Below, piece by piece: positions 8,405 to 61,866 of a DNA stretch of 64,000 bases; position 1 is the first letter of the stretch; every line of letters begins with the position of its first letter. The position numbers and the translations under genes were made by a program. Under the pieces are notes generated by a model. That model did no database searches. It saw only the letters and a list, made by a program, of their open reading frames with translations, and was not told the DNA's origin. This stretch comes from Apostichopus japonicus. Taxonomy: Eukaryota; Echinodermata; Holothuroidea; Aspidochirotida; Stichopodidae. The stretch is from contig NC_092562.1 of assembly GCF_037975245.1 (NCBI RefSeq), positions 31,560,554 to 31,624,553 on the forward strand, written 5' to 3'.

Positions 8405-8645
8405 GGACACCCGGTTCCCGGACAATTTCCCCCTGGACGATTTCGCCCCGGACGATTACCCCCCAGACGATTCCCCCTCGGACAATTGCCCCCCGGACAA
8501 TTCCCAACCCTGACAATTGCCCCCCGGACAATTCCCACCCGGACAATTGCCAACCCTGACAATTGCCCCCGGACAATTCCCACCCATGACAATTGCCCCC
8601 CGGACAATTTCCCCCGGACAGTTTCCCCCCGGACAATCCCCTTCC
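8405..8645. repeat. Degenerate GGACAATTSCCCCC array, left arm
   Basis: About 15 units of 14-18 bp built around 'cccggacaattgcccc'. The same motif recurs in reverse orientation at 11070-11335. The open frames on both strands are by-products of the repeat and are not genes. Confidence 0.85.
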
Positions 8646-11069: not shown

Positions 11070-11335
11070 ATAGCAATTGTCCGGGGAAATTGTCCGGGGG
11101 GGGGGGGGAATAGTCCGGGGGGAAATTGTCCGGGAAGGTTATTGACCGGGGGGTAATTGTCCGGGGGGAAGTCGTCCGGGATGGGAATTGTCCGGGGGGG
11201 AATTGTCTGGGGTGGGAACTGTCCGGGGTGGGAATTGTCTGGGTGGGAATTGTCCGGGGGGTAATTGTCCAGGGGGAGTTGTCTGGGGGGTAATTGTCCG
11301 GGGGGTAATTGTCCAGGGGGGGAGTTGTCCGGTCA
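11070..11335. repeat. Degenerate GGGGGAATTGTCC array, right arm
   Basis: About 15 units of 14-18 bp, the reverse complement of the 8405-8645 motif. It ends at 'ccggtcaccggacaccc', which resembles the inverted left end 'ggacacccggttcccgg'. Confidence 0.85.
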
Positions 11336-13846: not shown

Positions 13847-16800
13847 GTAGGTATCCATATCATGTCTCTTTTCACATTCTCACATTTCTTTTACTTTTCT
13901 TAGAGAAAATTGTCATTGAGTTAATGTTTCACCCAGACCAAAGAAAAAGCATTTTGGATGTATGTATCTTGATCTCCATGTTAACATAGCATTTACTGTA
14001 CCTGAAATTTTGTAAGGTACAGTAAATATTGTATATGTGTGGATATAGCATTTACTGTACCTTAAATTTTGTAAGGTACAGTAAATATTGTATATGTGTG
14101 GATATAGCATTTACTGTACCTTAAATTTTGTAAGGTACAGTAAATATTGTATATGTGTGGATATAGCATTTACTGTACCTTAAATTTTGTAAGGTACAGT
14201 AAATATTGTATATGTGTGGATATAGCATTTACTGTACCTTAAATTTTGTAAGGTACAGTAAATATTGTATATGTGTGGATATACACATACTGTAGTTGCC
14301 TATTTCCAATCACCTGCATGCTGTAAATAAATTGCATGGTGGTCATTGGTCCTGAGAGGTGGTACATGATGTCTGGGCCGGTCACAGTTCTGAACTGCTG
14401 TAAACAAATTGTATGGTGGTCATTGGTTCTAAGTGGTGGTTCCTGATGTCTGGGTTACAATTTGAACTGCTGTAAATGATAGAAACGTGGTTTAAAATAG
14501 AGTCACGACATGTGTAGGCAATGGACAGGTTTAAACAGAAGCTTAACTCAAGTCCAGGCGTCAAATAGTTGCAATTTGTCATTAATTTTATGAAATATGT
14601 TAAAATGCTGACATCTTTCCAAGTGTACAAGTTGACAATTTTATGAAAAATCTTGGAATGACAACTTATTACATCTCTTCATTTCAACAATTTTCTGCAA
14701 AATATTAAGTTACACTTGAGGTTTTACCAAGTCTGTAGTTTAAAAATTTTCTGAAATTGAACAAAAATGATGAGATGGAAACTGATTATTGTACATTTCC
14801 TGATCTCATAAATTTTATGAAAAAGGTTAACGAAGTAGAGTTTATTCTTACATTTATCTTGATGGCACTTTAAGCTGCCATAGGTCACAGATGTTAAAAC
14901 CTTGAGGATGAAACTGAAAGTTGTTTTTTTATGAAGGTCTCCTCTAAGTTTTAGGTCTATTATGCACATCAAAGCAGGGTGTTGAAAGTAATATACTGCC
15001 ATGTCATTTGATTGCCTTGAAAAGGTGAGGATAAAAACTAGTAAGAGTCCTAACAAATCCTGTGTCAACTCAACATATACTATGTGTGGTCAATAGTGTA
15101 CAGTGGCCTACATCTCAAAACTGTAGCTGTTACCATTATTTCATTACATTCTGTGTTTTGTATAGTGTCTAGTTGTAACTATTTTGGTTGCTTTCTGTAT
15201 AGATTCATCATAACTTTACATTCTTCATGCAAATCATTTGATAAATGATAATACACGATGTCCAGTTTGAAATCATCCATTGGACTGGAAAACACTTCAA
15301 AGTACAGTATCCTCCATTTTGACTGAACTGCAAACTTTTTTAAAATTCAATATTTGTTTTTAATTGCTAACTTTATTTTTGCAGGGGGCCATCCAGGTTG
15401 AAGTCAAAATTTTAAGTGGTGCTAAACCCATCTTGTTTTCTTGGGAGAATCCTCTTAAGAAGTCTGTGGAGTGTGTCTTGGTGACGTGTGCCTGTCAGGC
15501 CCTTGGTCTACGTCACGGCAAGGCCAAGGGAAAGGATCGAACAGCTCTGACTTCTGGCAGCCAGCAGTGGGCGTCTAATCTTGCTCATGCACTGGAGAAG
15601 GCTGAAGTTGTGACATATGCTTCAATGGACCCTCTGGAGAGTATCGCTAACCATATTGATTTAAACGAGACAGAGGGGGTAGATCGGGAGTACTCGAAGG
15701 AGGAATGGAAACTACTCACAAAATATGAAAGACAGAAAATAAGAAGGAAAAGAAATAGACAGAAACAAAAGGAATCATTAGAGAGACAGAAAGAACAATT
15801 AGTTGTTTGCAATCAAGATGAGCCATCTGCTGCAACATTAATTGATGAAGTTTCAACATCCCCATGTGGACAAGATGACAGCGAAGTTATGGAGGCAGCT
15901 ACAACAGTTGATGAAGAGATGTGTGAACCAGTGGTTCCTAAGGATAAACAAATTGGAGAAGGTCTATTGGATGTGACATCCAATGGAGAGATGTATCCCA
16001 CAGGGAAGGACTTTGTGGTTGACCCTGATTCCAGTGAGGAAGTTACAGAGGTTAATACCTCAAGAGAAGTTGAAGTTGGGAGAACAGAGTGTGATGTGCC
16101 AAATGAAATTCTACCTGAGACACAGGTTATCACAACGCATGATCAACCTCAAGATGATTTGTTAAATGAAAGTTTAAAACAAAACCAGATTTGGAATGAT
16201 GGACATTCTGAGTCCATAACTACTGCTTCAGTCATCCCAACTGCAAACTCTGCTTACCTAGAGACAACTCATGAACCAGAAATAAGTAATGAAGTCACTT
16301 TAGAGGCCACTGTGTCAGCCGAAACCAGCAACCCTGTGACAATTATCTCTGTAGATGAGGCTGTTGCAAGTCACAAGGGTTCTAAAGTCACTACTGGCAG
16401 CTCAGATAACAACACAGTTCAATTTGTAGACATACAGGGAGCTGTAGTTGTGTCATCTGCTTTCCCAAGCTCAGTGTCATCCTCTCTCTCTGATGAGCAA
16501 ACACTTATGAAAGCTATTGACAGCATCATGGACATGTGCCCAGCACCAGAGATGGGTGAATCTCCAGTGCTCCCTGAGACCATGTATACGTTACCAACAA
16601 CAACCACAACACCAAATGAATTACCAAGAACTAAAGTGCCATTTATCAGAAACCTCACAGAAGAGGAACGGAAAAAGATGTTCAAATTCCAGTCAGACTC
16701 TGAGAGAGAAAACCAAGCTGCCTTGGAGTCTGGGAATGCTTGTCTCTGTGAACAGTGCGGTAAAATCTTTGGCCAACGTAATTTAAGCAAACATATGCAG

Positions 16801-30482: not shown

Positions 30483-33400
30483 GTATGTATCTCATCATAT
30501 CTTAAAGGATTGACAGTTAAAGATATTACTTGTAAGCAAGTCTTGCTTTTGACAGATAGCAAAGAGTCCAGTGCAGGGCAATTTTTAATCATCATCTGAG
30601 ACGACAAATTTCTGTTCAGACGACCAAAATCAGCTCTGAAGGTCGTCTGGCGGAGAACTACTGTAGTTCTCTTCAGATTGCATTGTAAACTTATTTTGTT
30701 GGTAGCAATCCTCCATCACTATGGAGATATTGAAATGCCAGAATATAAAGAAATAAACATAGGATCCACTCATAGGGGAGTTTTTGCTTGCCCAAAGCTG
30801 GTGTTCTATTCACCAGATCTGTACATCCTTCTGACTCATATTGGTCATAGTTTACTATTTTGCTGTTTTGACAATAGAAACATTAAATTAAAAAACCCTT
30901 TAAAATTTGCCCAGCAGTGTAGTGCCTTGTTGTAGGTGAATGTTCATTGAGAGTTACGGTTGTATACTGAAGTAATATGGTGGCCTGGGATCAATTGTGG
31001 TGCAATTAATAACTGAACAAATTTCAAGTTTAATATTTCTAGCTTTTTGCAATATGTTAATAACATGACTTGTCTGTTTATTATATGTATTGTATATACC
31101 GTGCTAAAATAAATTGATAAAAATGTTGACAATTTCCTTAGAAGTACAGTATATTCGTTAATAATGGCGCCATTTCGATAGCTACTGTTTTATGGCCACA
31201 GTCAACTTAAAAGAATGGACTCCATATGATATTAACTGGCATGACCTCAGATGAGTTACAAATAGTAACCTGGAGTGCATATATCACAAATATAATTTAT
31301 AAAGGTTTGTCTGAGTAATTGCCTATATCCTTCATCGTTTCAAAAGTTTCCATTGAACTCAAACACTTAAGAGTTGTTCTGATGTAGTAAACCATCATGA
31401 AATACTGTATTACTGGATAGGGAATAGTTAGATGTAGCTTTGCAAAGGTTCACTGTTTGTGAACAGCACAGTGAGAGACAGGGAGAGACAGGCGTTGGCT
31501 TAACTTTCTGCTGTAATACGGTATAATCATGATGTTCCAAAAATGTGTCATAGTAGGTACCTTGCCATAAAAGGTCTCTATTACAGAAGCAAGGTCTAAT
31601 ATTTTCAGAGCACTACTTTGCAGTACGAATAACATAAGAGAAATTAAAAAATATGACATTTGAATGTAGTAATGTCCTATCTAGTCTCTGATATGCATTA
31701 GTGTTCTATTTATAACATACAGTAGCATTAATTTTGTTTGTATTTTCTTCTTTTCTATTTTCAGTTAGAGCTGAATTTATCCGTCAAAGTGCTGGATCGT
31801 AAAGCACCTTACCTCTTCGTTTGGTGGAACGAAAACGATGGTTGTGCGGATGGCTTCTTGGTGACTTGTGAATGTCAGAGCTTTCATCTAGGAAAGGATA
31901 AACCTGCTCCCAAACAAGCGCCTACAGATAAATCGTCAGCGTGGTACGGTAGCCTTGCAAAAGCCATGCAAAATGCCGAGATCGTAACAGTTCATCCACA
32001 GCGGAGTGGGACAAGTCTGTGTAAGTTGAGTGACGTGGTGGAGGTACAGAGTAACAAGGCGAAAAAGAAAAGAAAAGGAAAGCAATGCAAGAAAAAGACA
32101 GAGAAGAAAGAAACACAGGAAGATGAAAAGAAGGAAGAGGAAGAAGATGAAGAAAATGCTGCCTCGAATGGTCACCATGGTGATGATGAAAATGATGGAA
32201 ATGAGAAAGAAGAGGTGACTGAAGAGACGAGTGAAGAAGAAATAAAGAACCCAATAGATGTTGACATCTTCCAGAGTGACATGGAGATGGGCAAGGAGAT
32301 TAGAGACTTTGATATCAGCATTGGCATGGAGACAAATGTAACCACAACTATAGACTATGATCAGGGTGAAGAAGGAGAAGACATCTCAGACCCAAGAAAT
32401 GAAGAGACCATCGCAGCTGTTCCCATATCAATCGGCTCTATGTCTGATGCTATCCAAGATATGCTCTCACCGTCTGCTCTGGTTACTGAAGAAACAGTTC
32501 CAACCATTTCGATTTCAGCTCCCGCAGATGAACTTGACCTAGATAGTATTAATCCCAAAGCCCAAGAGAAAATTGCTCAACTTAAGGCTCTGAAAGACCA
32601 GCAATACTTGGAAAGATACAATAGAAAAGTCAAGAATCGCAAGATAACTTTCATGCTCTGTGAAATATGTGGAGCTGCTGTTTGCAACAAGAGTTTCAAG
32701 AGACATATAGAAGCTGTGCACTATAAAGGACAGAGAGAAGGCCTATTTGCCTGCAGCATTTGCAACAAAAAATTCCTGTACCCGACTAACGTTAAGAGAC
32801 ATGAACTGATTCACGCTAATGCCAGATTCCACTGTCGTTACTGTGAGAATACCTATGCTCAAGAAGGAGCATGCAGGGTAGGTAATATCCAAATGTATGA
32901 GGACTTGAAGGGTCCTTGACAAATAAGCACACTGCTGGAAAGAAAGATAGGCCAGTGGTATATGTATATATAAATACACTTAGTAGACACACAGCTGTAT
33001 ACTAGATACATGTTGGTTGTGTTTGTACATACACTTAGAAGACACACAGCTGTATACTAGATACATGTAGGCTGTGTTTTTACATACACTTAGTAGACAG
33101 TAGACACACAGCTGTATATTAGATACATGTAGGTTGTGTTTGTACATACACCTAGTAGACACACAGCTGTATACTAGATACATGTAGGCTGTGTTTGTAC
33201 ATACACTTAGTAGACACACAGCTGTATACTAGATACATGTAGGCTGTGTTTTTACATACACTTAGTAGACAGTAGACACACAGCTGTATATTAGATACAT
33301 GTAGGTTGTGTTTGTACATACACTTAGTAGACACACAGCTGTATACTAGATACATGTAGGCTGTGTTTTTACATACACTTAGTAGACAGTAGACACACAG

Positions 33401-36400
33401 CTGTATATTAGATACATGTAGGTTGTGTTTGTACATACACCTAGTAGACACACAGCTGTATACTAGATACATGTTGGTTGTGTTTGTACATACACTTAGT
33501 AGACACACAGCTGTATACTAGATACATGTAGGCTGTGTTTTTACATACACTTAGTAGACAGTAGACACACAGCTGTATATTAGATACATGTAGGTTGTGT
33601 TTGTACATACACTTAGTAGACACACAGCTGTATACTAGATACATGTAGGTTGTGTTTGTACATACACTTAGTAGACACACAGCTGTATATTAGATACATG
33701 TAGGTTGTGTTTGTACATACACTTAGTAGACACACAGCTGTATACTAGATACATGTAGGTTGTGTTTGTACATACACTTAGTAGACACACAGCTGTATAC
33801 TAGATACATGTAGGTTGTGTTTGTACATACACTTAGTAGACACACAGCTGTATACTAGATACATGTAGGCTGTGTTTCTACATACACTTAGTAGACACAC
33901 AGCTGTATACTAGATACATGTAGGCTGTGTTTGTACATACACTTAGTAGACACACAGCTGTATACTAGATACATGTAGGTTGTGTTTGTACATACACTTA
34001 GTAGACACACAGCTGTATACTAGATACATGTAGGCTGTGTTTGTACATACACTTAGTAGACACACAGCTGTATACTAGATACATGTAGGTTGTGTTTGTA
34101 CATACACTTAGTAGACACACAGCTGTATACTAGATACATGTAGGCTGTGTTTGTACATACACTTAGTAGACACACAGCTGTATACTAGATACATGTAGGC
34201 TGTGTTTGTACATACACTTAGTAGACACACAGCTGTATACTAGATACATGTAGGTTGTGTTTGTACATACACTTAGTAGACACACAGCTGTATACTAGAT
34301 ACATGTAGGCTGTGTTTGTACATACACTTAGTAGACACACAGCTGTATACTAGATACATGTAGGTTGTGTTTGTACATACACTTAGTAGACACACAGCTG
34401 TATACTAGATACATGTAGGTTGTGTTTGTACATACACTTAGTAGACACACAGCTGTATACTAGATACATGTAGGCTGTGTTTGTACATACACCTAGTAGA
34501 CACACAGCTGTATACTAGATACATGTAGGCTGTGTTTGTACATACACTTAGTAGACACACAGCTGTATACTAGATACATGTAGGTTGTGTTTGTACATAC
34601 ACTTAGTAGACACACAGCTGTATACTAGATACATGTAGGTTGTGTTTGTACATACACTTAGTAGACACACAGCTGTATACTAGATACATGTAGGTTGTGT
34701 TTGTACATACACTTAGTAGACACACAGCTGTATACTAGATACATGTAGGCTGTGTTTGTACATACACCTAGTAGACAGTAGACACACAGCTGTATATTAG
34801 ATACATGTAGGCTGTGTTTTTACATACACTTAGTAGACACACAGCTGTATACTAGATACATGTAGGCTGTGTTTGTACATACACCTAGTAGACAGTAGAC
34901 ACACAGCTGTATATTAGATACATGTAGGCTGTGTTTTTACATACACTTAGTAGACAGTAGACACACAGCTGTATACTAGATACATGTAGGCTGTGTTTTT
35001 ACATACACTTAGTAGACACACAGCTGTATACTAGATACATGTAGGCTGTGTTTTTACATACACTTAGTAGACACACAGCTGTATACTAGATACATGTAGG
35101 TTGTGTTTTTACATACACTTAGTAGACACACAGCTGTATACTAGATACATGTAGGCTGTGTTTTTACATACACTTAGTAGACACACAGCTGTATACTAGA
35201 TACATGTAGGCTGTGTTTTTACATACACTTAGTAGACACACAGCTGTATACTAGATACATGTAGGTTGTGTTTTTACATACACTTAGTAGACACACAGCT
35301 GTATACTAGATACATGTAGGCTGTGTTTTTACATACACTTAGTAGACACACAGCTGTATACTAGATACATGTAGGCTGTGTTTTTACATACACTTAGTAG
35401 ACACACAGCTGTATACTAGATACATGTAGGCTGTGTTTTTACATACACTTAGTAGACACACAGCTGTATACTAGATACATGTAGGTTGTGTTTGTACATA
35501 CACTTAGTAGACACACAGCTGTATACTAGATACATGTAGGCTGTGTTTTTACATACACTTAGTAGACACACAGCTGTATACTAGATACATGTAGGCTGTG
35601 TTTTTACATACACTTAGTAGACACACAGCTGTATACTAGATACATGTAGGCTGTGTTTTTACATACACTTAGTAGACACACAGCTGTATACTAGATACAT
35701 GTAGGTTGTGTTTGTACATACACTTAGTAGACACACAGCTGTATACTAGATACATGTAGGCTGTGTTTTTACATACACTTAGTAGACACACAGCTGTATA
35801 CTAGATACATGTAGGCTGTGTTTTTACATACACTTAGTAGACACACATCTGTATACTAGATACATGTAGGTTGTGTTTGTACATACACTTAGTAGACACA
35901 CAGCTGTATACTAGATACATGTAGGCTGTGTTTTTACATACACTTAGTAGACACACAGCTGTATACTAGATACATGTAGGCTGTGTTTTTACATACACTT
36001 AGTAGACACACAGCTGTATACTAGATACATGTAGGCTGTGTTTTTACATACACTTAGTAGACACACAGCTGTATACTAGATACATGTAGGTTGTGTTTGT
36101 ACATACACTTAGTAGACACACAGCTGTATATTAGATACATGTAGGCTGTGTTTTTACATACACTTAGTAGACACACAGCTGTATACTAGATACATGTAGG
36201 CTGTGTTTTTACATACACTTAGTAGACACACAGCTGTATACTAGATACATGTAGGCTGTGTTTTTACATACACTTAGTAGACACACAGCTGTATACTAGA
36301 TACATGTAGGCTGTGTTTTTACATACACGTAGTAGATACACAGCTGTATACTAGATACATGTAGGCTGTGTTTGTACATACACCTAGTAGACACACAGCT

Positions 36401-39400
36401 GTATACTAGATACATGTAGGCTGTGTTTGTACATACACCTAGTAGACACACAGCTGTATACTAGATACATGTAGGCTGTGTTTGTACATACACCTAGTAG
36501 ACACACAGCTGTATACTAGATACATGTAGGTTGTGTTTGTACATACACTTAGTAGACACACAGCTGTATACTAGATACATGTAGGCTGTGTTTTTACATA
36601 CACTTAGTAGACACACAGCTGTATACTAGATACATGTAGGCTGTGTTTTTACATACACCTAGTAGACACACAGCTGTATACTAGATACATGTAGGCTGTG
36701 TTTTTACATACACCTAGTAGACACACAGCTGTATACTAGATACATGTAGGCTGTGTTTGTACATACACCTAGTAGACACACAGCTGTATACTAGATACAT
36801 GTAGGTTGTGTTTGTACATACACTTAGTAGACACACAGCTGTATACTAGATACATGTAGGCTGTGTTTTTACATACACTTAGTAGACACACAGCTGTATA
36901 CTAGATACATGTAGGCTGTGTTTTTACATACACCTAGTAGACACACAGCTGTATACTAGATACATGTAGGCTGTGTTTGTACATACACCTAGTAGACACA
37001 CAGCTGTATACTAGATACATGTAGGTTGTGTTTGTACATACACTTAGTAGACACACAGCTGTATACTAGATACATGTAGGCTGTGTTTTTACATACACTT
37101 AGTAGACACACAGCTGTATACTAGATACATGTAGGCTGTGTTTTTACATACACCTAGTAGACACACAGCTGTATACTAGATACATGTAGGCTGTGTTTTT
37201 ACATACACCTAGTAGACACACAGCTGTATACTAGATACATGTAGGCTGTGTTTGTACATACACCTAGTAGACACACAGCTGTATACTAGATACATGTAGG
37301 TTGTGTTTGTACATACACTTAGTAGACACACAGCTGTATACTAGATACATGTAGGCTGTGTTTTTACATACACTTAGTAGACACACAGCTGTATACTAGA
37401 TACATGTAGGCTGTGTTTTTACATACACCTAGTAGACACACAGCTGTATACTAGATACATGTAGGCTGTGTTTGTACATACACCTAGTAGACACACAGCT
37501 GTATACTAGATACATGTAGGTTGTGTTTGTACATACACTTAGTAGACACACAGCTGTATACTAGATACATGTAGGCTGTGTTTTTACATACACCTAGTAG
37601 ACACACAGCTGTATACTAGATACATGTAGGCTGTGTTTTTACATACACCTAGTAGACACACAGCTGTATACTAGATACATGTAGGCTGTGTTTGTACATA
37701 CACCTAGTAGACACACAGCTGTATACTAGATACATGTAGGCTGTGTTTGTACATACACCTAGTAGACACACAGCTGTATACTAGATACATGTAGGTTGTG
37801 TTTGTACATACACTTAGTAGACACACAGCTGTATACTAGATACATGTAGGCTGTGTTTTTACATACACTTAGTAGACACACAGCTGTATACTAGATACAT
37901 GTAGGCTGTGTTTTTACATACACCTAGTAGACACACAGCTGTATACTAGATACATGTAGGTTGTGTTTGTACATACACTTAGTAGACACACAGCTGTATA
38001 CTAGATACATGTAGGCTGTGTTTGTACATACACCTAGTAGACACACAGCTGTATACTAGATACATGTAGGCTGTGTTTTTACATACACTTAGTAGACACA
38101 CAGCTGTATACTAGATACATGTAGGTTGTGTTGTACATACACTTAGTAGACACACAGCTGTATACTAGATACATGTAGGCTGTGTTTTTACATACACCTA
38201 GTAGACACACAGCTGTATACTAGATACATGTAGGCTGTGTTTGTACATACACCTAGTAGACACACAGCTGTATACTAGATACATGTAGGTTGTGTTTGTA
38301 CATACACTTAGTAGACACACAGCTGTATACTAGATACATGTAGGCTGTGTTTTTACATACACCTAGTAGACACACAGCTGTATACTAGATACATGTAGGC
38401 TGTGTTTGTACATACACCTAGTAGACACACAGCTGTATACTAGATACATGTAGGTTGTGTTTGTACATACACTTAGTAGACACACAGCTGTATACTAGAT
38501 ACATGTAGGCTGTGTTTTTACATACACCTAGTAGACACACAGCTGTATACTAGATACATGTAGGTTATGTTTTGGCTTCATTTCACTTCTGTATACCTAT
38601 GTCATGGTTTTGACCTGCTTTGACATACAATTATGTGTGATTGCAATGACAAATAAATGTAATGGCAAATAAATATAAATTAAATGATAATCAAGCAGCT
38701 TTGCCATGTCACTGTCAAAGATGTAATTTATTGTACATGAAGTTATAAAGTAGTAAATGATACTAAAAAATGAACTAAACACATTCATATTCAGAATTAA
38801 AATAAAAGTAATATTGATGTGCGGGCAAACCATTCTCATTCTCTGTGTTTGTATTTTATGTCACCATTAATCTTCACGAGCCCATTGTTGTTTTATTGTC
38901 TTTCTTCAGTCTCACGAGAGAAAGTGTCATAGTAGCGAAGATCCGAAGAATGAGGAGGCAAAGATGACCGTTACCAAGATGACAAAACTGACCGCTTGGC
39001 CTCATTATAAGTCTGCGGACAGGGCGACCAAGATCGTTGAATGTCAAATCTGTAAGAAGAAGATGAAGAGGTCTTCGCTGAGACATCACATGGAGACTCA
39101 TAATCCAGAGGGTGTGGCTTGTCCAATCTGTCATAAAGTCTATAGTTCAACGTGCAGCCTCAGGACTCACACACAGACTCACGGGGAGAGGAAGTTCCAT
39201 TGCACGGTATGCGGTAAGAGGTTTCACCAGAGACAAGGCCTAGTAACGCACACTCGTATACATACCAATGAAAAGCCACTCAAGTGTCGTATGTGCGGGG
39301 AAGCATTCTCACGACAGCAGGCTAGGATAAACCATGAAAGACGACACACCGGGGAGAAGCCATACTCATGTACCATCTGTGTGAAAGACTGGAGAGATAG

Positions 39401-45845: not shown

Positions 45846-46135
45846 ATAAACTCTTGTGTGAAAAAAACAATTCATTCCTGCTTCATTGAAAACAACAGAT
45901 CAAATTTGCCTTAATATTCATTGCTTCCATATGATCCACCTTAGGTATAAACTATCCTTCATTTATTGACAAGAGTGACATATCCGATCCTACAATTCAT
46001 TATCTTAATACTCACGTTTCTCTTGGTAAATGCTATATATGCTAGCAATGGACAAAGATACTAGTATATATTTATCGAATCCATGCCATCAAGCAAGTAA
46101 TATTAAACTAAAAACATAACAAAACATCTACCCGT

Positions 46136-46718
46136 CTTGTGATATTTTACGTATGGTACGGTTTTCCTCTACCTCATAGCTTCCTGTTCTTGTGTTATTT
46201 TACGTATGGTACAGTTTTCCTCTACCTCATAGCTTCCTGGTCTTGTGATATTTTACGTATGGTACAGTTTTCCTCTACCTCATAGCTTCCTGTTCTTGTG
46301 TTATTTTACGTATGGTACGGTTTTCCTCTACCTCATAGCTTCCTGTTCTTGTGTTATTTTACGTATGGTACAGTTTTCCTCTACCTCATAGCTTCCTGGT
46401 CTTGTGATATTTTACGTATGGTACAGTTTTCCTCTACCTCATAGCTTCCTGGTCTTGTGATATTTTACGTATGGTACAGTTTTCCTCTACCTCATAGCTT
46501 CCTGGTCTTGTGATATTTTACGTATGGTACAGTTTTCCTCTACCTCATAGCTTCCTGGTCTTGTGTTATTTTACGTATGGTACAGTTTTCCTCTACCTCA
46601 TAGCTTCCTGGTCTTGTGTTATTTTACGTATGGTACAGTTTTCCTCTACCTCATAGCTTCCTGGTCTTGTGTTATTTTACGTATGGTACAGTTTTCCTCT
46701 ACCTCATAGCTTCCTGGT
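46136..46718 (-). repeat. GLDC: 53-bp array carrying the GLDC stop codon, 11 units
   Basis: Eleven units of exactly 53 bp. On the minus strand each contains 'caggaagctatgaggtag', which is the last five codons plus the TAG stop. Only the unit nearest the gene (46666-46718) is the functional end; the other ten lie in the 3' UTR. Confidence 0.95.
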
Positions 46719-46839
46719 CATCTACATAATCCCCGTAAGAGTCCATACTTGGGCAAGTACAAATCAGGTTTTTATCCCCGTATAAGTCATCGACGCGACC
46801 CACCGACGGCCAAAACTTGCTCTCAGGCTTCACAAAGGG
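46699..46839 (-). CDS. GLDC: GLDC last coding exon
   Basis: Phase 0 in. It codes [18 protein letters not shown] through LICTCPSMD to the TAG at 46699-46701. The final residues (DDQEAMR) lie in the repeat unit that is duplicated downstream. Confidence 0.95.
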
Positions 46840-55800: not shown

Positions 55801-58800
55801 TCATTGAGTGTGCAAGAGAGAGGTCTTTGTTCTCCAGTTGCTTCATATATCGAAGGAGAGCCGTTTCTGAATGGTGGCTGGAAAATTAAAATCACATCAT
55901 GATAAACCATGCATGATACTTAAATAAGGTTGCAAGGCTGTGTACATTTTAGTGGTCATATCTAACACTATTTTAGTGTACAATAATTACTGGATACATA
56001 GTATGTGCTTCCTTTATACTGTCAATGTTATTTAAATTCCTCTGTCTCAATTGTGACAAATGTTTCAATATGTTCATGTCTGTCATTGTTTATATTCTGT
56101 ATACTGTACATATAAGTCAAACTGTTGACACCCGGCAGGCTTGTTTTATAGGATTCTGTAACATGTTTTCGTCTGATACTTAGATGGCTTGTTGTCTAAG
56201 ATTCTGTAACATGTTTTTGTCTGATACTTAGATGGCAAGTTAACGTTTAATGGATGAAATCAGCTTAGCTGTCTCCCGAAATCTTACCTATGAAATACAG
56301 GATGACTGAGATAAGAGGTCTTCCTCTTAAATGATGAGTTACTGATACTTTTCAGGTTTCCTTTGCTTTGCAAATCACCTGCAATCTCCTCCTAGTTAGA
56401 AATGAAAACAAACACGGTTTATATTAAGCACAATGGATACTGTTTAAACAAGCTGTTGAAGGTTTGAGAAATAAACTATAACTCCCCGCTCCCCCTACTC
56501 ACATCTACCCATCTAAGCAGAATGGATACTGTTTAAACAAGCTGTTGAAGGTTTGAGAAATAAACTATAACTTCCCCTCCCCCTACTCACACCTACCCAT
56601 TTAAGCAGAATGGATACTGTTTAAACAAGCTGTTGTAGGCTTAAGAAAGAAAAAGTGTAACTCCTCCTCCCCCCATACCTCCTCCTCCCACCTACCCAAT
56701 TCCCAGAATTGCTAAAACATTGAAGAAATTCTCTGGTTGTATATCGCTATAAATGTCCTGTAATTGTAGCAGTTTTTCATACAAAGGCAAAGATTCTCTG
56801 AATTAGTCAAAGAGTTTTGTTAAGACTAAAACTAGTGTTATGCTGCTGATAAACTCTGGCATAGCCCAACATATCTAGTATAACATTACCAGCAGTTCAT
56901 GACAATTATAAATGACAATACATACTAAGACTAAACAAATACTAAGCAACAAAAATAAACTTGTTCAGCAAACCAGAAAGAACAATGAAAACATAAAGGC
57001 AGTCTTTACCGCTGATGATTTGCACTCAAAAATCCTCAATAGGTCGTTGAGGTCTGCCTCTTCCACTGTTTCATCCAGAGATATCCCAAACTGTAAAAGG
57101 ACAACACTGATTGGATGAAGCTGGTCATGTGACACAAAACATTGTATATGAAGCAGTAGATGCTGTCAACAGTCATGAACTTGTCAGAGCTAATTTGCAA
57201 TTGTTATTCAATATGGATGAGCTATAGTAATGCATGAACAAAGTATCAAAACATCATGGATGACATCACAACGTTGCATCATGAATATGGATGAGTAATA
57301 ACACAACTGTAATCATGAATATGGATGAGTAGTAACACAACTGTAATCATGAATATGGATAGGTAGTAACACAACTGTAATCATGAATATGGACGATGTG
57401 GTTTGCAGTCAGAAATTAAAAACAGGGATAAGATTGAATCATGAAAGTAAAAGAACTTCAACTGAAGCCAAGATAACTTACGCTTCCATCATCAAATTGC
57501 CGAAGGTTTATTTTATGATTATCAGCCTGCTGCTTGATGCCTGCCTTAAGACCATTACACTGAACTCTGAGAGTATCAAAGAATGTGTCTGTCATCATCA
57601 GTTCATGGCCAGCCTGCTTCAGACCTGAGAAAATAATACACCAGATTCTGCATATATCATCATGAATATAATAAAACCACATGTAATAAATTATTCAACT
57701 TTATCATTGATGAAAACTTGCAAAACAAACAACCTAACATGTGATTCAGGTGGGTGAGGTCAGGGTGCTAGGGCTTGAAGATTTTACTAGACAGACACAC
57801 CAGATATATATTCAGTTAATTACCAGTGCCATTATTTAATAACACTAAGAAAGACGTTATCAAATTACATCTAGTACACATCTTTCTGTATGGAAACCTT
57901 GAAGTACCATCAAAATGTTAATATCTTTTATGTACATATATGGGAAGCAATATTCAACACAATAATGAAATGCTTAAACAAGTAATCAGCAAACAAACTG
58001 ACAAATTCCATACTCTTCACAGGTGAGAAATTCATGGTTTACAAACCATGTAACCCACATTTTCCCTGTGCATTTAGACTGCAGCATGACAAATCAATTG
58101 CTTATCACATATTGTGAAACTTGTAAAACACAACTTTGGCAAAACAACTTTTAAATATCAACGTATAAATCATACACATAAACCAGCGCTGCACTGGTTC
58201 GAATCCCGTCCTAGCCGTAAATTTCTTTGCTTTTGTTTTGCTTCTCAAAAGAACAACAAAGTGTACAGTTTTTCTGCATATAATGTCAGCATATTGCAGA
58301 CAATTCTTATCACATTTACATCGACATAAACCTTTTGATTGCACCTCAACGTTTCCATACTTTGTGACCTTGACACTGATTACTCAACCTTACCTTCAGC
58401 TAATATGAGGGTAGAATTATGGATTCTATGTGCTATGTGTTGCAGTCCCTGTGGTCCATGGTAGATACAGTACAGCACACTCATATTGGCCAGCAGAGCC
58501 TAGGAACAAGATAGGAAACATAGAAAAGCTGTTAAGCCTTGAGTAAGAGAGACCTACATGCAACCACAAACAGGTTTCAACTGATGTTCTCACCCCCTTA
58601 CCCCTGCCCCACCCCCAATTAATCCAATCATAATTAATCCTCTCCTCGCTCTCTCCATGCCTGTTCCCACCCCCCCTCATTACCCCTGCCCACCCACTCC
58701 ATTAATCAAATCATATTTATTCCTCTCCTCCCTCTCTCCATGCCTGGTCGCCCCACCTCCCCATTACCCCTGCCCCACCCCCTCCATTAATCCAATCATA

Positions 58801-61800
58801 ATTATTCCTCTCCTCCCTCTCTCAATACCTGGTCCCCCCACCTCCCCATTACCCCTGCCCCACCCCCTCCATTAATCCAATCATAATTATTCCTCTCCGC
58901 CCTCTCTCCATGCCTGTTCCCCCTCCCCATTATCCCTTACCCACCCCTCCATTAATCCAATATTATTCCTCTCCTCACTCTCTCAATACCTGGTCCCCCC
59001 ACCTCCCATTACCCCTGCCCCACCCCCTCCATTAATCCAATCATAATTATGCCTCTCCTCCCTCTCTCCATGCCTGTCCTCCCCTAAATGATTCACTTAA
59101 TATCACAACTAATATTGTGTTACTTTACACAATGCGTGATTCTATAAGCTGCTGTGCTGTGACTTACACTGGATGACAGCATTTCAATTTCTCTTGTACT
59201 TTATCTTAGTTTATCTTTTAAATATGATGATAAAGCCCAGCGATATTGACAAACAATTGATTATCAGGACATCAAAGCATAAGCAGCAAATACAGGCCTA
59301 GGTTGTAAAGATAACTGCTTAGTGTACATAATTATTGTGTAAACATAAGACAAACTAGACAATGGCTTTACATTGCGCAAGTGGTGCTAGGCACCATTTA
59401 AATGGCTTACAATATTCTCCTGTTTTAGACACGATAGAGAAAGCTCATTAGTAAGCTTAGCAATAGCTAAAGACAATTCATCAGTCCTCAGGGCTCACCT
59501 TATGATTAGCAATGTTCACATGTTAATTTGAAACCTCTCACATATTTCTACCACCCCACCTCTCCCTTCCCATCCACAGTTCATCCCCTTCTCTTTTCAC
59601 AGTTATCAAAGCTGTGTAGCCTTTTCTGACTCGGGTTACCAGACCTATGGTGGTATCTTCTGGAAGCCTTCTTCCCCATCCCATAATTTACCTGAGCTCT
59701 ACCCCATCCCATAATTTACCTGAGCCTTCTCCCCCATCCAATAATTTACCTGAGCTCTACCCCATCCTATAATTTACCTGAGCTCTACCCCATCCTATAA
59801 TTTACCTGAGCCTTCTCCCCCATCCCATAATTTACCTGAGCCTTCTCCCCCATCCCATAATTTACCTGAGCCTTCTTCCCCATCCCATAATTTACCTGAG
59901 CCTTCTTCCCCATCCCATAATTTACCTGAGCCTTCTCCCCCATCCCATAATTTACCTGAGCCTTCTTCCCCATCCCATAATTTACCTGAGCCTTCTTCCC
60001 CATCCCATAATTTACCTGAGCCTTCTCCCCCATCCCATAATTTACCTGAGCCTTCTCCCCCATCCCATAATTTACCTGAGCCTTCTCCCCCATCCCATAA
60101 TTTACCTGAGCTCTACCCCATCCTATAATTTACCTGAGCTCTACCCCATCCCATAATTTACCTGAGCCTTCTCCCCCATCCCATAATTTACCTGAGCTCT
60201 ACCCCATCCTATAATTTACCTGAGCTCTACCCCATCCCATAATTTACCTGAGCCTTCTCCCCCATCCCATAATTTACCTGAGCCTTCTCCCCCATCCCAT
60301 AATTTACCTGAGCTTTCTTCCCCATCCCATAATTTACCTGAGCCTTCTTCCCCATCCCATAATTTACCTGAGCCTTCTCCCCCATCCCATAATTTACCTG
60401 AGCCTTCTTCCCCATCCCATAATTTACCTGAGCCTTCTTCCCCATCCCATAATTTACCTGAGCCTTCTTCCCCATCCCATAATTTACCTGAGCCTTCTCC
60501 CCCATCCCATAATTTACCTGAGCCTTCTCCCCCATCCCATAATTTACCTGAGCCTTCTCCCCCATCCCATAATTTACCTGAGCTCTACCCCATCCTATAA
60601 TTTACCTGAGCTCTACCCCATCCCATAATTTACCTGAGCCTTCTCCCCCATCCCATAATTTACCTGAGCCTTCTCCCCCATCCCATAATTTACCTGAGCC
60701 TTCTTCCCCATCCCATAATTTACCTGAGCCTTCTTCCCCATCCCATAATTTACCTGAGCCTTCTTCCCCATCCCATAATTTACCTGAGCCTTCTCCCCCA
60801 TCCCATAATTTACCTGAGCCTTCTCCCCCATCCCATAATTTACCTGAGCCTTCTCCCCCATCCCATAATTTACCTGAGCTCTACCCCATCCTATAATTTA
60901 CCTGAGCTCTACCCCATCCCATAATTTACCTGAGCCTTCTCCCCCATCCCATAATTTACCTGAGCCTTCTTCCCCATCCCATAATTTACCTGAGCCTTCT
61001 CCCCCATCCCATAATTTACCTGAGCCTTCTCCCCCATCCCATAATTTACCTGAGCCTTCTTCCCCATCCCATAATTTACCTGAGCCTTCTCCCCCATCCC
61101 ATAATTTACCTGAGCCTTCTCCCCCATCCCATAATTTACCTGAGCCTTCTTCCCCATCCCATAATTTACCTGAGCCTTCTCCCCCATCCCATAATTTACC
61201 TGAGCCTTCTCCCCCATCCCATAATTTACCTGAGCCTTCTTCCCCATCCCATAATTTACCTGAGCCTTCTTCCCCATCCCATAATTTACCTGAGCCTTCT
61301 CCCCCATCCCATAATTTACCTGAGCCTTCTTCCCCATCCCATAATTTACCTGAGCCTTCTCCCCCATCCCATAATTTACCTGAGCCTTCTCCCCCATCCC
61401 ATAATTTACCTGAGCCTTCTTCCCCATCCCATAATTTACCTGAGCCTTCTCCCCCATCCCATAATTTACCTGAGCCCTCTCCCCCATCCCATAATTTACC
61501 TGAGCTTTCTTCCCCATCCCATAATTTACCTGGGCCTTCTTCCCCATCCCATAATTTACCTGAGCCTTCTCCCCCATCCCATAATTTACCTGAGCCTTCT
61601 TCCCCATCCCATAATTTACCTGAGCCTTCTTCCCCATCCCATAATTTACCTGAGCCTTCTCCCCCATCCCATAATTTACCTGAGCCTTCTCCCCCATCCC
61701 ATAATTTTCCTGAGCCTTCTACCCCATCCCATAATTTACCTGAGCCTTCTCCCCCATCCCATAATTTACCTGAGCTGTGCAGATGTTGCTGGTAGCTTTC

Positions 61801-61866
61801 TGTCTTCTGATGTGTTGTTCTCTAGCTTGTAAGGACAATCTGTAAGCCTCATTACCAGAAGAATCC
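46699..61866 (-). CDS. GLDC: Glycine dehydrogenase (decarboxylating), P protein, partial at 5' end
   Basis: Sixteen exons with matching phases code for the C-terminal 665 residues of the animal P protein, about two thirds of the usual ~1,000. The enzyme is PLP-dependent, decarboxylates glycine and passes the aminomethyl group to the lipoyl H protein in the mitochondrial glycine cleavage system. Diagnostic segments in order are [126 protein letters not shown] and [15 protein letters not shown]. The PLP-binding lysine is at 52772-52774. The first exon seen enters in phase 2; the mitochondrial presequence and the remaining N-terminal exons lie beyond the right edge. I see no frame break. Confidence 0.97.
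47422..47567 (-). CDS. GLDC: GLDC exon (penultimate)
   Basis: Phase 1 in, 0 out, donor gtgagt. It ends [13 protein letters not shown], the conserved C-terminal region of P proteins. Confidence 0.95.
47625..48145. repeat. ~59-bp degenerate repeat in GLDC intron
   Basis: About eight units of 'caacacccatctagtatcaa', 'atgacacagctctaaggtca' and 'caatcaccctta'. Confidence 0.88.
48365..48612 (+). mobile_element. tRNA-derived SINE
   Basis: The head 'ggagtgttagctcagtggtt' has an A-box-like tagctcagtgg and a B-box-like ggttcgagtc, but the anticodon stem does not pair, so it is not a working tRNA. A ~170-bp body follows and ends in a low-complexity ATACATA-type tail. A truncated sister lies at 45651-45845. 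It sits in a GLDC intron in antisense orientation to the gene. Confidence 0.8.
48700..48807 (-). CDS. GLDC: GLDC exon coding [11 protein letters not shown]
   Basis: Phase 1 in and out, donor gtaagt. It codes [20 protein letters not shown] to DRLCDALL. Its first bases and acceptor are copied six times upstream in the 139-bp array. Confidence 0.95.
48793..49700 (-). repeat. GLDC: 139-bp array carrying a GLDC 3' splice site, seven copies
   Basis: The exon start 'gcttccatgctccaa' and the tttag before it recur at 48793 (true site), 48963, 49102, 49241, 49380, 49519 and 49658. The last five intervals are 139 bp and the first is 170. Within each unit is a ~30-bp sub-repeat 'taactgaccaatgaatgagg'. 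The acceptor AG is kept in every copy. Confidence 0.95.
50095..50215. repeat. ~41-bp repeat, three units, in GLDC intron
   Basis: Units contain 'attaggtcccaagactatac' and 'acattaatacagtgc'. Confidence 0.85.
50363..50455 (-). CDS. GLDC: GLDC exon coding [14 protein letters not shown]
   Basis: Phase 1 in and out, donor gtaagt. It ends in [10 protein letters not shown], a conserved P-protein segment. Confidence 0.95.
51239..51350 (-). CDS. GLDC: GLDC exon coding [20 protein letters not shown]
   Basis: Phase 0 in, 1 out, donor gtgaga; acceptor ctacag. Confidence 0.95.
51397..52098. repeat. 36-bp minisatellite in GLDC intron, ~19 units
   Basis: Units are built from 'cataactaacaacaaagtaa' and 'tcacaaacaggaacca', with small indels. 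Minus-strand open frames in it are repeat by-products. Confidence 0.93.
52163..52295 (-). CDS. GLDC: GLDC exon coding [12 protein letters not shown] to [13 protein letters not shown]
   Basis: Phase 2 in, 0 out, donor gtaagt; acceptor ttgacag. Confidence 0.95.
52719..52981 (-). CDS. GLDC: GLDC exon with the PLP lysine
   Basis: The longest GLDC exon in the window, 263 nt, phase 0 in, 2 out. It codes [31 protein letters not shown] and [20 protein letters not shown]. The Lys of HK (52772-52774) is the expected Schiff-base residue, and the glycine-rich run after it is intact. Confidence 0.97.
53592..53717 (-). CDS. GLDC: GLDC exon coding [20 protein letters not shown]
   Basis: Phase 0 both ends, 42 codons; donor gtaagc. 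Confidence 0.95.
54064..54139 (-). CDS. GLDC: GLDC exon coding [17 protein letters not shown]
   Basis: Phase 2 in, 0 out, donor gtaagt. The first base completes the Ser of [13 protein letters not shown]. Confidence 0.95.
54844..54986 (-). CDS. GLDC: GLDC exon coding [20 protein letters not shown]
   Basis: Phase 0 in, 2 out. The donor gtacaa is the weakest in the gene. It ends [18 protein letters not shown]. Confidence 0.94.
55751..55877 (-). CDS. GLDC: GLDC exon coding [20 protein letters not shown]
   Basis: Phase 2 in, 0 out, donor gtaagt. It ends [14 protein letters not shown]. Confidence 0.96.
56288..56391 (-). CDS. GLDC: GLDC exon coding [16 protein letters not shown]
   Basis: Phase 0 in, 2 out, donor gtaaga. 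The start of the exon is less conserved; the [11 protein letters not shown] part aligns with animal P proteins. Confidence 0.92.
56430..56690. repeat. ~90-bp repeat, three units, in GLDC intron
   Basis: Units contain 'aatggatactgtttaaacaa' and 'gctgttgaaggtttgagaaa', then a C-rich stretch and 'cacctaccc'. Confidence 0.88.
57010..57090 (-). CDS. GLDC: GLDC exon coding [20 protein letters not shown]
   Basis: Phase 0 both ends, 27 codons; donor gtaaag. Confidence 0.95.
57278..57395. repeat. 34-bp repeat, about 3.5 units, in GLDC intron
   Basis: Units are 'aatcatgaatatggatgagt' followed by 'agtaacacaactgt'. Confidence 0.85.
57482..57624 (-). CDS. GLDC: GLDC exon coding [20 protein letters not shown]
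   Basis: Phase 1 in, 0 out, donor gtaagt. It ends NLRQFDDGS. Confidence 0.94.
58178..58245 (-). mobile_element. tRNA-like SINE fragment
   Basis: 'actggttcgaatcccgtcc' resembles a tRNA B box. The opposite-strand translation contains the familiar repeat artefact TGFEPVQ. Only a short fragment is visible. Confidence 0.4.
58394..58499 (-). CDS. GLDC: GLDC exon coding [20 protein letters not shown]
   Basis: Phase 0 in, 1 out, donor gtaagg. It ends [10 protein letters not shown]. Confidence 0.96.
58583..59092. repeat. ~84-bp C-rich repeat, six units, in GLDC intron
   Basis: Units contain 'cattaatccaatcataatta', 'ttcctctcctccctctctcc' and 'cccattacccctgcccca'. Confidence 0.9.
59668..61778 (-). 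repeat. GLDC: 30-bp array carrying a GLDC 5' splice site, ~70 units
   Basis: On the minus strand each unit reads 'ggctcaggtaaattatggga' then 'tgggggagaa'. The 'gctcag|gtaaat' part is the exon end and donor at 61770, so almost every unit repeats that splice site. A few 28-bp units ('agagctcaggtaaattatag') occur in pairs at intervals of several hundred bp, a higher-order pattern. The long minus-strand [10 protein letters not shown] frames are intronic. Confidence 0.96.
61770..61866 (-). CDS. GLDC: GLDC first exon in window (internal exon)
   Basis: Phase 2 in, 0 out. It codes [17 protein letters not shown] at its 3' end; donor gtaaat lies within the first unit of the 30-bp array. Confidence 0.95.

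Follow-up and report, generated by a model that had tools for sequence, protein, structure and literature searches.

The glycine dehydrogenase (P-protein) gene GLDC of the sea cucumber Apostichopus japonicus contains an intron that opens with dozens of copies of its own 5' splice site, raising the question of how such a ladder of donors arose and how splicing could choose among its members. The stretch analysed, referred to below as the window, comprises 64,000 nucleotides of contig NC_092562.1, and coordinates are window positions unless a contig is named. The intron is flanked by two minus-strand coding exons assigned from splice signals and GLDC homology, to the human protein in the case of the first: an exon of 97 nt (61770–61866), which ends at the first donor, and the next exon (58394–58499), whose acceptor lies outside the ladder. 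Joined as 61866–61770 and 58499–58394, they encode 67 amino acids that match human GLDC with an E value of 3.2e-27 and are gap-free across the junction, which is confirmed to be in phase 0. The intron is 3270 nt long, and the array occupies 64% of it. A genome-wide search with PF02347 produced six matches, all inside one 16 kb stretch, so that a single GLDC locus was found. A tblastn search with E. coli GcvP places homologous segments in order along this locus (minus-strand matches listed with E below 1); the gene is thus a glycine dehydrogenase gene with its homologous exons ordered at one locus. Among those same matches there is none for E. coli residues 1–63 or about 414–478, the latter interval corresponding to a middle GLDC exon that is missing from the matches listed. 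A GLDC pseudogene is rejected on the homologous segments along the gene together with the sole locus found.

The array is placed by TRF at 59665–61775 (period 30, 71.1 copies, 95% matches) and by unit parsing on the minus strand at 59662–61769, where 71 units of GTAAATTATGGGATGGGGGAGAAGGCTCAG run head to tail from the last six exon bases to about 59662. Sixty of these are 30 bp long and 11 are 28 bp. The donor CAG|GTAAAT, the same as that of the exon itself, is intact in 70 of the 71, the exception being unit 3 (GAAAAT). The initial annotation had described about 70 tandem copies of the donor at a GLDC exon in a unit spanning the last exon bases and the splice site, and both points hold: the hexamer GCTCAG is common to the exon and the unit end, an identity that extends to 9 bp if up to two mismatches are allowed. 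Head-to-tail units of tens of base pairs, with the internal turnover described below, characterize the array as a minisatellite (VNTR). A 23-base unit pattern (one base off the consensus, two mismatches allowed) has 71 matches in the 671.6 Mb genome (35 contigs), all 71 of them here, and as a tandem array the ladder is far beyond chance. A repeat that spread from elsewhere in the genome is rejected, the unit pattern being matched at this locus only. The same intron holds a second tandem array (about 85 bp; 58593–59085 by TRF, no strand assigned), to which no role is ascribed.

The first three units, all read on the minus strand, differ in what they would do to the message. Donor 1 (61764–61772) is, from the unit parse, GLDC homology and the U1 duplex, the sole donor predicted to yield the normal protein. 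Unit 1 (61740–61769) would be kept if donor 2 were used and, since the junction is in phase 0 and unit 1 is open, would add ten residues without a frameshift, as had been proposed. The TAG that had been noted in the following unit is indeed in frame in unit 2 (61719–61721), and use of any donor past the second would carry it. In unit 3 (61680–61709), a change at the +1 position (61709) destroys the donor, with a U1 duplex of −4.5 versus −8.3 kcal/mol for the intact copies. The units had also been described as multiples of three, which, with 28 bp in 11 of the 71, is true of only 60; the reading frame along the array is first broken at unit 29.

Two loci read for the U1 snRNA of this genome start with the standard AUACUUACCUG. 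As a separate observation, 42 U1 snRNA matches are clustered on one strand at G000:C20:29019462-29087219, often about 856 bp apart. The pairing energy of −8.3 kcal/mol makes the 70 intact unit donors joint seventh among the 17 GLDC donors recovered (18 were sought). On the same strand, GT windows at least as strong number 63 of 5245 (1.2%) outside the array and 70 of 82 inside it. The units are not acceptor-like: the pyrimidine fraction is 0.26 in the unit versus 0.74 and 0.83 at two true acceptors, and the true acceptor of this intron lies 1.2 kb beyond the array, which therefore forms a donor-only ladder. A recursive splicing (ratchet) site consists of AG|GT with an upstream pyrimidine tract; the unit lacks such a tract and does not belong to this class. 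Masking of the decoy donors by G-quadruplexes is likewise rejected, as RNAfold with the quadruplex option predicts no such structure for stretches of 1, 2, 4 or 6 consensus units or for the exon joined to the initial units, under a loop limit that forbids quadruplexes across distant units.

With 70 donors equal in U1 pairing, the choice among them would fall to position and exon context. The Q|A site, at which any retained unit would be inserted, is without indels in all 80 prokaryotic homologues aligned, these being the best 80 of 590 confirmed and retrieved with seed peptides of which one adjoins the site, so that the sample leans toward conserved copies. GLDC chains from solved structures are also gap-free at this position when aligned. 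The absence of indels in homologues argues that normal GLDC needs donor 1. Slippage to donor 2 would insert ten residues into the conserved core, and a working GLDC isoform with these residues is judged unlikely from the sequence comparison. Donor 3 is dead, and any later donor would leave the unit 2 TAG in the message, ahead of further exon junctions. A stop codon in such a position predicts nonsense-mediated decay, which would be the expected fate of transcripts that slip to donor 4 or beyond. Given the need for normal GLDC, splicing most probably keeps to the first donor, with the copies being tolerated decoys. Donor 1 may be favoured because an exon-definition complex would bound it together with the 97-nt exon and because it is transcribed earlier. 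Artificial donor duplications often favour the intron-proximal copy, nearest the acceptor, which would predict the opposite choice. Two-donor substrates can bear two U1 snRNPs, according to an excerpt of PMC8724738.

The variants along the array carry a record of how it has turned over. Six unit types occur once only, the truncated last unit among them, and all six lie no more than ten units from an end (units 2, 3, 8, 10, 69 and 71), a placement as close to the ends as this being reached in none of 20,000 permutations. A ten-unit block, ADCAAABBBA, which holds 28 bp D and C units, occurs twice in succession on the variant map (units 28–37 and 38–47; 60368–60959, minus strand). The longest repeated block in 2000 shuffled maps averages 5.7 units with a maximum of ten, so that the observed duplicate is unusual but not unreachable. 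End-clustered singletons and a doubled block are what minisatellite repeat turnover gives. The disabling changes in units 2 and 3 (the TAG and the dead donor) could hint at selection, yet both array ends are enriched in variants.

These features suggest a history in which a minisatellite was seeded across the GLDC exon–intron junction, copying the last six exon bases and 22–24 intron bases, and then expanded in the downstream direction, into the intron, through turnover of its repeats, so that 70 potential donors resulted. The reading preferred here, at a probability of roughly 0.7, is that a minisatellite private to this locus captured the GLDC junction and grew into the intron, with the first donor mostly used and the copies tolerated as decoys. 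A related arrangement is found at the other end of the gene, where an array of 11 copies of a 53 bp unit (46134–46719, minus strand, TRF) starts inside the final codons of GLDC (DDQEAMR) and carries repeated copies of the stop codon, the first stop being at 46701. If an array arises astride a coding border, it would be able to expand only on the non-coding side, and both the ladder and the stop-codon array fit this inference.

Tandem arrays are common around the gene: the GLDC part of the window has 15 (overlapping TRF rows merged) over 38% of 16.9 kb. When arrays are placed at random, 28% of 20,000 trials bring at least one array edge to within 7 bp of a donor (12 donors in all), so that an array edge at a donor is not surprising by position alone. 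Several further arrays were noted in the window. The largest, at 32974–38572, has 101 copies of a 55 bp unit over 5.6 kb (95% matches, TRF). Arrays of 15 bp units at 8417–8637 (CCCGGACAATTGCCC) and 11102–11332 (GGGGGGGAATTGTCC), 2.5 kb apart, resemble inverted relatives by eye, and an array of 5.3 copies of a 59 bp unit at 13986–14294 (98%) appears by eye to have an inverted repeat within its unit.

The GLDC ladder is not alone. The genome was searched for triple donors spaced 15–45 bp apart using five donor patterns and their reversed counterparts, and manual grouping of the matches lists at least 35 donor-ladder loci, including GLDC: five for CAGGTAAGT, at least four for CAGGTAAAT (including the window), five for CAGGTGAGT, seven for AAGGTAAGT and at least 14 for CAGGTATGT. 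The ladder of near-identical donors that the initial annotation had pointed out is therefore one of several in this genome. Counted as overlapping triples rather than loci, donor and reversed matches are 29 versus 28 for CAGGTAAGT, 131 versus 3 for CAGGTAAAT, 31 versus 63 for CAGGTGAGT, 27 versus 25 for AAGGTAAGT and 129 versus 26 for CAGGTATGT. Ladders are thus not consistently commoner than reversed patterns and, with the 28% expected from random placement, nothing shows that donors attract arrays; preferential nucleation at donors is not claimed. Three reversed-pattern loci (L125–L128) were translated as a control, a number too small for a rate. One of these, L127 (G000:C19:190900-192500), is open for 158 and 201 codons, LREGTDHHGRSRS-like and possibly a coding repeat.

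At 25 of the 34 other loci, Pfam was searched with one or two frames that precede the first ladder donor; the remaining nine have no open frame of 25 amino acids at the ladder. A coding exon supported by homology ends at the ladder in six of the at least 35 loci (GLDC, L093, L094, L111, L116 and L120), the genes being GLDC, a BTAF1/Mot1-like gene, an ATP13A-like gene, MCM3, a C2H2 zinc-finger gene and an RWD gene. The ATP13A-like transporter (L094) matches a solved structure with an E value of 3.7e-07, its Pfam match being under the cut-off; its exon is followed by 15 exact donors, and the protein resumes in a later exon. The MCM3 ladder exon has homology at 4.2e-13, and the RWD gene (L111) has a Pfam match of 1.6e-05, with its best solved-structure match at only E 0.56. 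In the C2H2 zinc-finger gene, the exon's own donor is GTAAAT and the ladder copies are GTATGT. Donor spacings in the five non-GLDC ladders are 44, 40/41, 23/24/43, 31 and 27/33/34/59 bp, mostly not multiples of three, and in four of the five a reading frame continued past the exon reaches a stop codon in at most 18 codons; for MCM3 the 34 codons shown are free of stops.

Some loci were left out of the coding count. At L113 (G000:C3:8821050-8822230), an EF-hand-like exon that narrowly misses the Pfam cut-off (E 1.5e-5) stops at GTACGT, and the exact donors of a GTATGT ladder start 45 bp further on. Ladders at L104, L105, L117 and L121 (G000 C2, C3, C10 and C19) appear by eye to be fused to exons that lack homology; the exon and unit of L104 share 26 bp (up to two mismatches), L121 has an ankyrin-like end and L105 a possible start-codon exon. 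At G000:C29:14745-31219, away from these ladders, there are five matches to pieces of COX1 in addition to the full COX1 on C35, representing a mitochondrial copy, a fragment or a misassembly. Read by eye, the COX1 of this genome makes sense under the genetic code in which AAA is Asn, which points to a probable echinoderm source, although flatworms have the same code.

The most extreme anatomy is that of the BTAF1/Mot1-like SNF2 exon (L093), which matches PF00176 at 5.9e-15 and has as its best solved relative 7zb5_E ('Helicase-like protein', 1.7e-12), which we take to be Mot1. The ladder has 77 exact donors (C19:21631027 to 21634638), and its 44 bp unit consists of 32 bp of exon (with one mismatch) and 12 bp of intron; 68 of the 76 donor spacings are 44 bp. 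Except for about its final 20 bases, the whole 3647 nt intron is array; the next exon (NNVLELWSLFDFLMPGFLG), presumably the continuation of BTAF1/Mot1, starts 36 nt beyond the last donor. Nowhere else in the genome is matched better than these two exons (81% and 96%), the next best match being 53% identical. Exact identity of the later donors to the sequence upstream of donor 1 is found over 10 nt in 50 of 76, over 20 nt in 43, over 30 nt in five and over 35 nt in none. Since 43 of the 76 decoys have the upstream 20 nt of donor 1, this case removes many local sequence cues. By eye, the 44 bp units of L093 and L101 (G000:C19:21631027-21634673) include a CTAAC branch-like motif.

Several other explanations of the GLDC ladder can be weighed against capture of the junction by a minisatellite. 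The copies might serve as functional alternative donors, with an isoform from donor 2 carrying ten extra residues and selection maintaining a frame-preserving 30 bp unit. Such a system would need an open, in-frame unit 1 and an intact donor 2, both of which are present, but the insertion point is free of indels in 80 of 80 homologues aligned, 11 of the 71 units are 28 bp long and frame is mostly lost in the other ladders; we regard the proposal as very improbable. The frame-keeping of the GLDC units, which had been noted initially, is not supported as a meaningful feature and is probably a coincidence, given that the other ladders are mostly out of frame. A somewhat better, although still doubtful, case can be made for a copy-number rheostat, in which donors past the second lead to targets of nonsense-mediated decay and the length of the array, varying between individuals, tunes GLDC output. 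Every donor past the second is rendered unproductive by the TAG of unit 2, and human IFI6 offers two downstream repeat units reported as used donors (part of PMC4526556); however, the same anatomy occurs at unrelated genes and there is no sign of selection.

The duplication could instead have created the intron, tandem copies of an AGGT-containing segment providing both splice sites. The units do end in CAG|GT, and related cases are a fission-yeast one, with the proto-splice site given as AGGC (in part of PMC3629103), and ATP2A1 as cited in a portion of PMC4974935. The GLDC copies, however, provide no 3' splice site: the unit lacks a pyrimidine tract, and because a separate acceptor is located 1.2 kb past the array, the ladder is not a new intron. 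Intron gain by this route is thus most improbable here. Of the earlier suggestion that introns grow by tandem duplication of an AGGT site, what stands is growth by duplication of a donor segment, above all on the anatomy of the BTAF1-like intron; gain of an intron does not, for want of a pyrimidine tract and of an acceptor within the array. An assembly artefact, with the existence or length of the array in error, is equally hard to credit. Long near-identical arrays are error-prone and can be mis-sized, but the unit differences follow an ordered pattern and similar ladders are present at other loci.

Turri, Cuin and Porter reportedly described in 1995 a minisatellite in human IFI6 (6-16/G1P3) that provides multiple splice donor sites. 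According to PMC4526556, two downstream repeat units of IFI6 are used as donors, giving three mRNA species. The GLDC ladder resembles IFI6 in having tandem units at the end of an exon with a donor in each, 70 of the 71 units carrying CAG|GTAAAT and the first abutting the exon. It differs in its 71 units of 28–30 bp, in its residence in a conserved enzyme gene and in the identity of all but one donor; moreover, several ladders occur here in one genome. In the fission-yeast genes SPOG_01682 and SOCG_00815, tandem 24 nt copies contain a proto-splice site and a gained intron spans the repeats (excerpted in PMC3629103); those are coding repeats with a new intron, whereas the GLDC array is intronic with a separate acceptor. 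In ATP2A1 and potato RdRp, a duplicated segment with a splice signal alters the intron structure, as summarized in a section of PMC4974935, through single or few duplications, in contrast to 71 units and no new acceptor here. Ordinary intronic minisatellites share the period, turnover pattern, variant ends and restriction to one locus, but the GLDC unit includes a donor contiguous with a coding exon. Among the open-licence papers listed, none was found to describe ladders of donors that recur as a class within a genome, which is weak evidence of absence. IFI6 is the clear precedent and the fission-yeast genes are a second; what is new is that ladders recur in a single genome.

It is possible, although we rate it at somewhat below even odds, that ladders constitute a recurring intron class of this genome, with competition among dozens of donors that are identical, in places across 20 nt upstream as well as downstream, and with position in the transcript alone selecting the right one. 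If so, donor choice in vivo would follow exon definition or the order of transcription rather than donor strength, and productive mRNA could be held back to a degree that varies with array length. The choice of a 5' splice site among equals has so far been studied with artificial duplications. The ladders are substrates provided by nature, with between 4 and 77 exact copies of a donor in the DNA read, several of them in conserved genes that require correct splicing. They also give a concrete route of intron growth, in which a junction is duplicated in tandem and expansion is possible only on the non-coding side.
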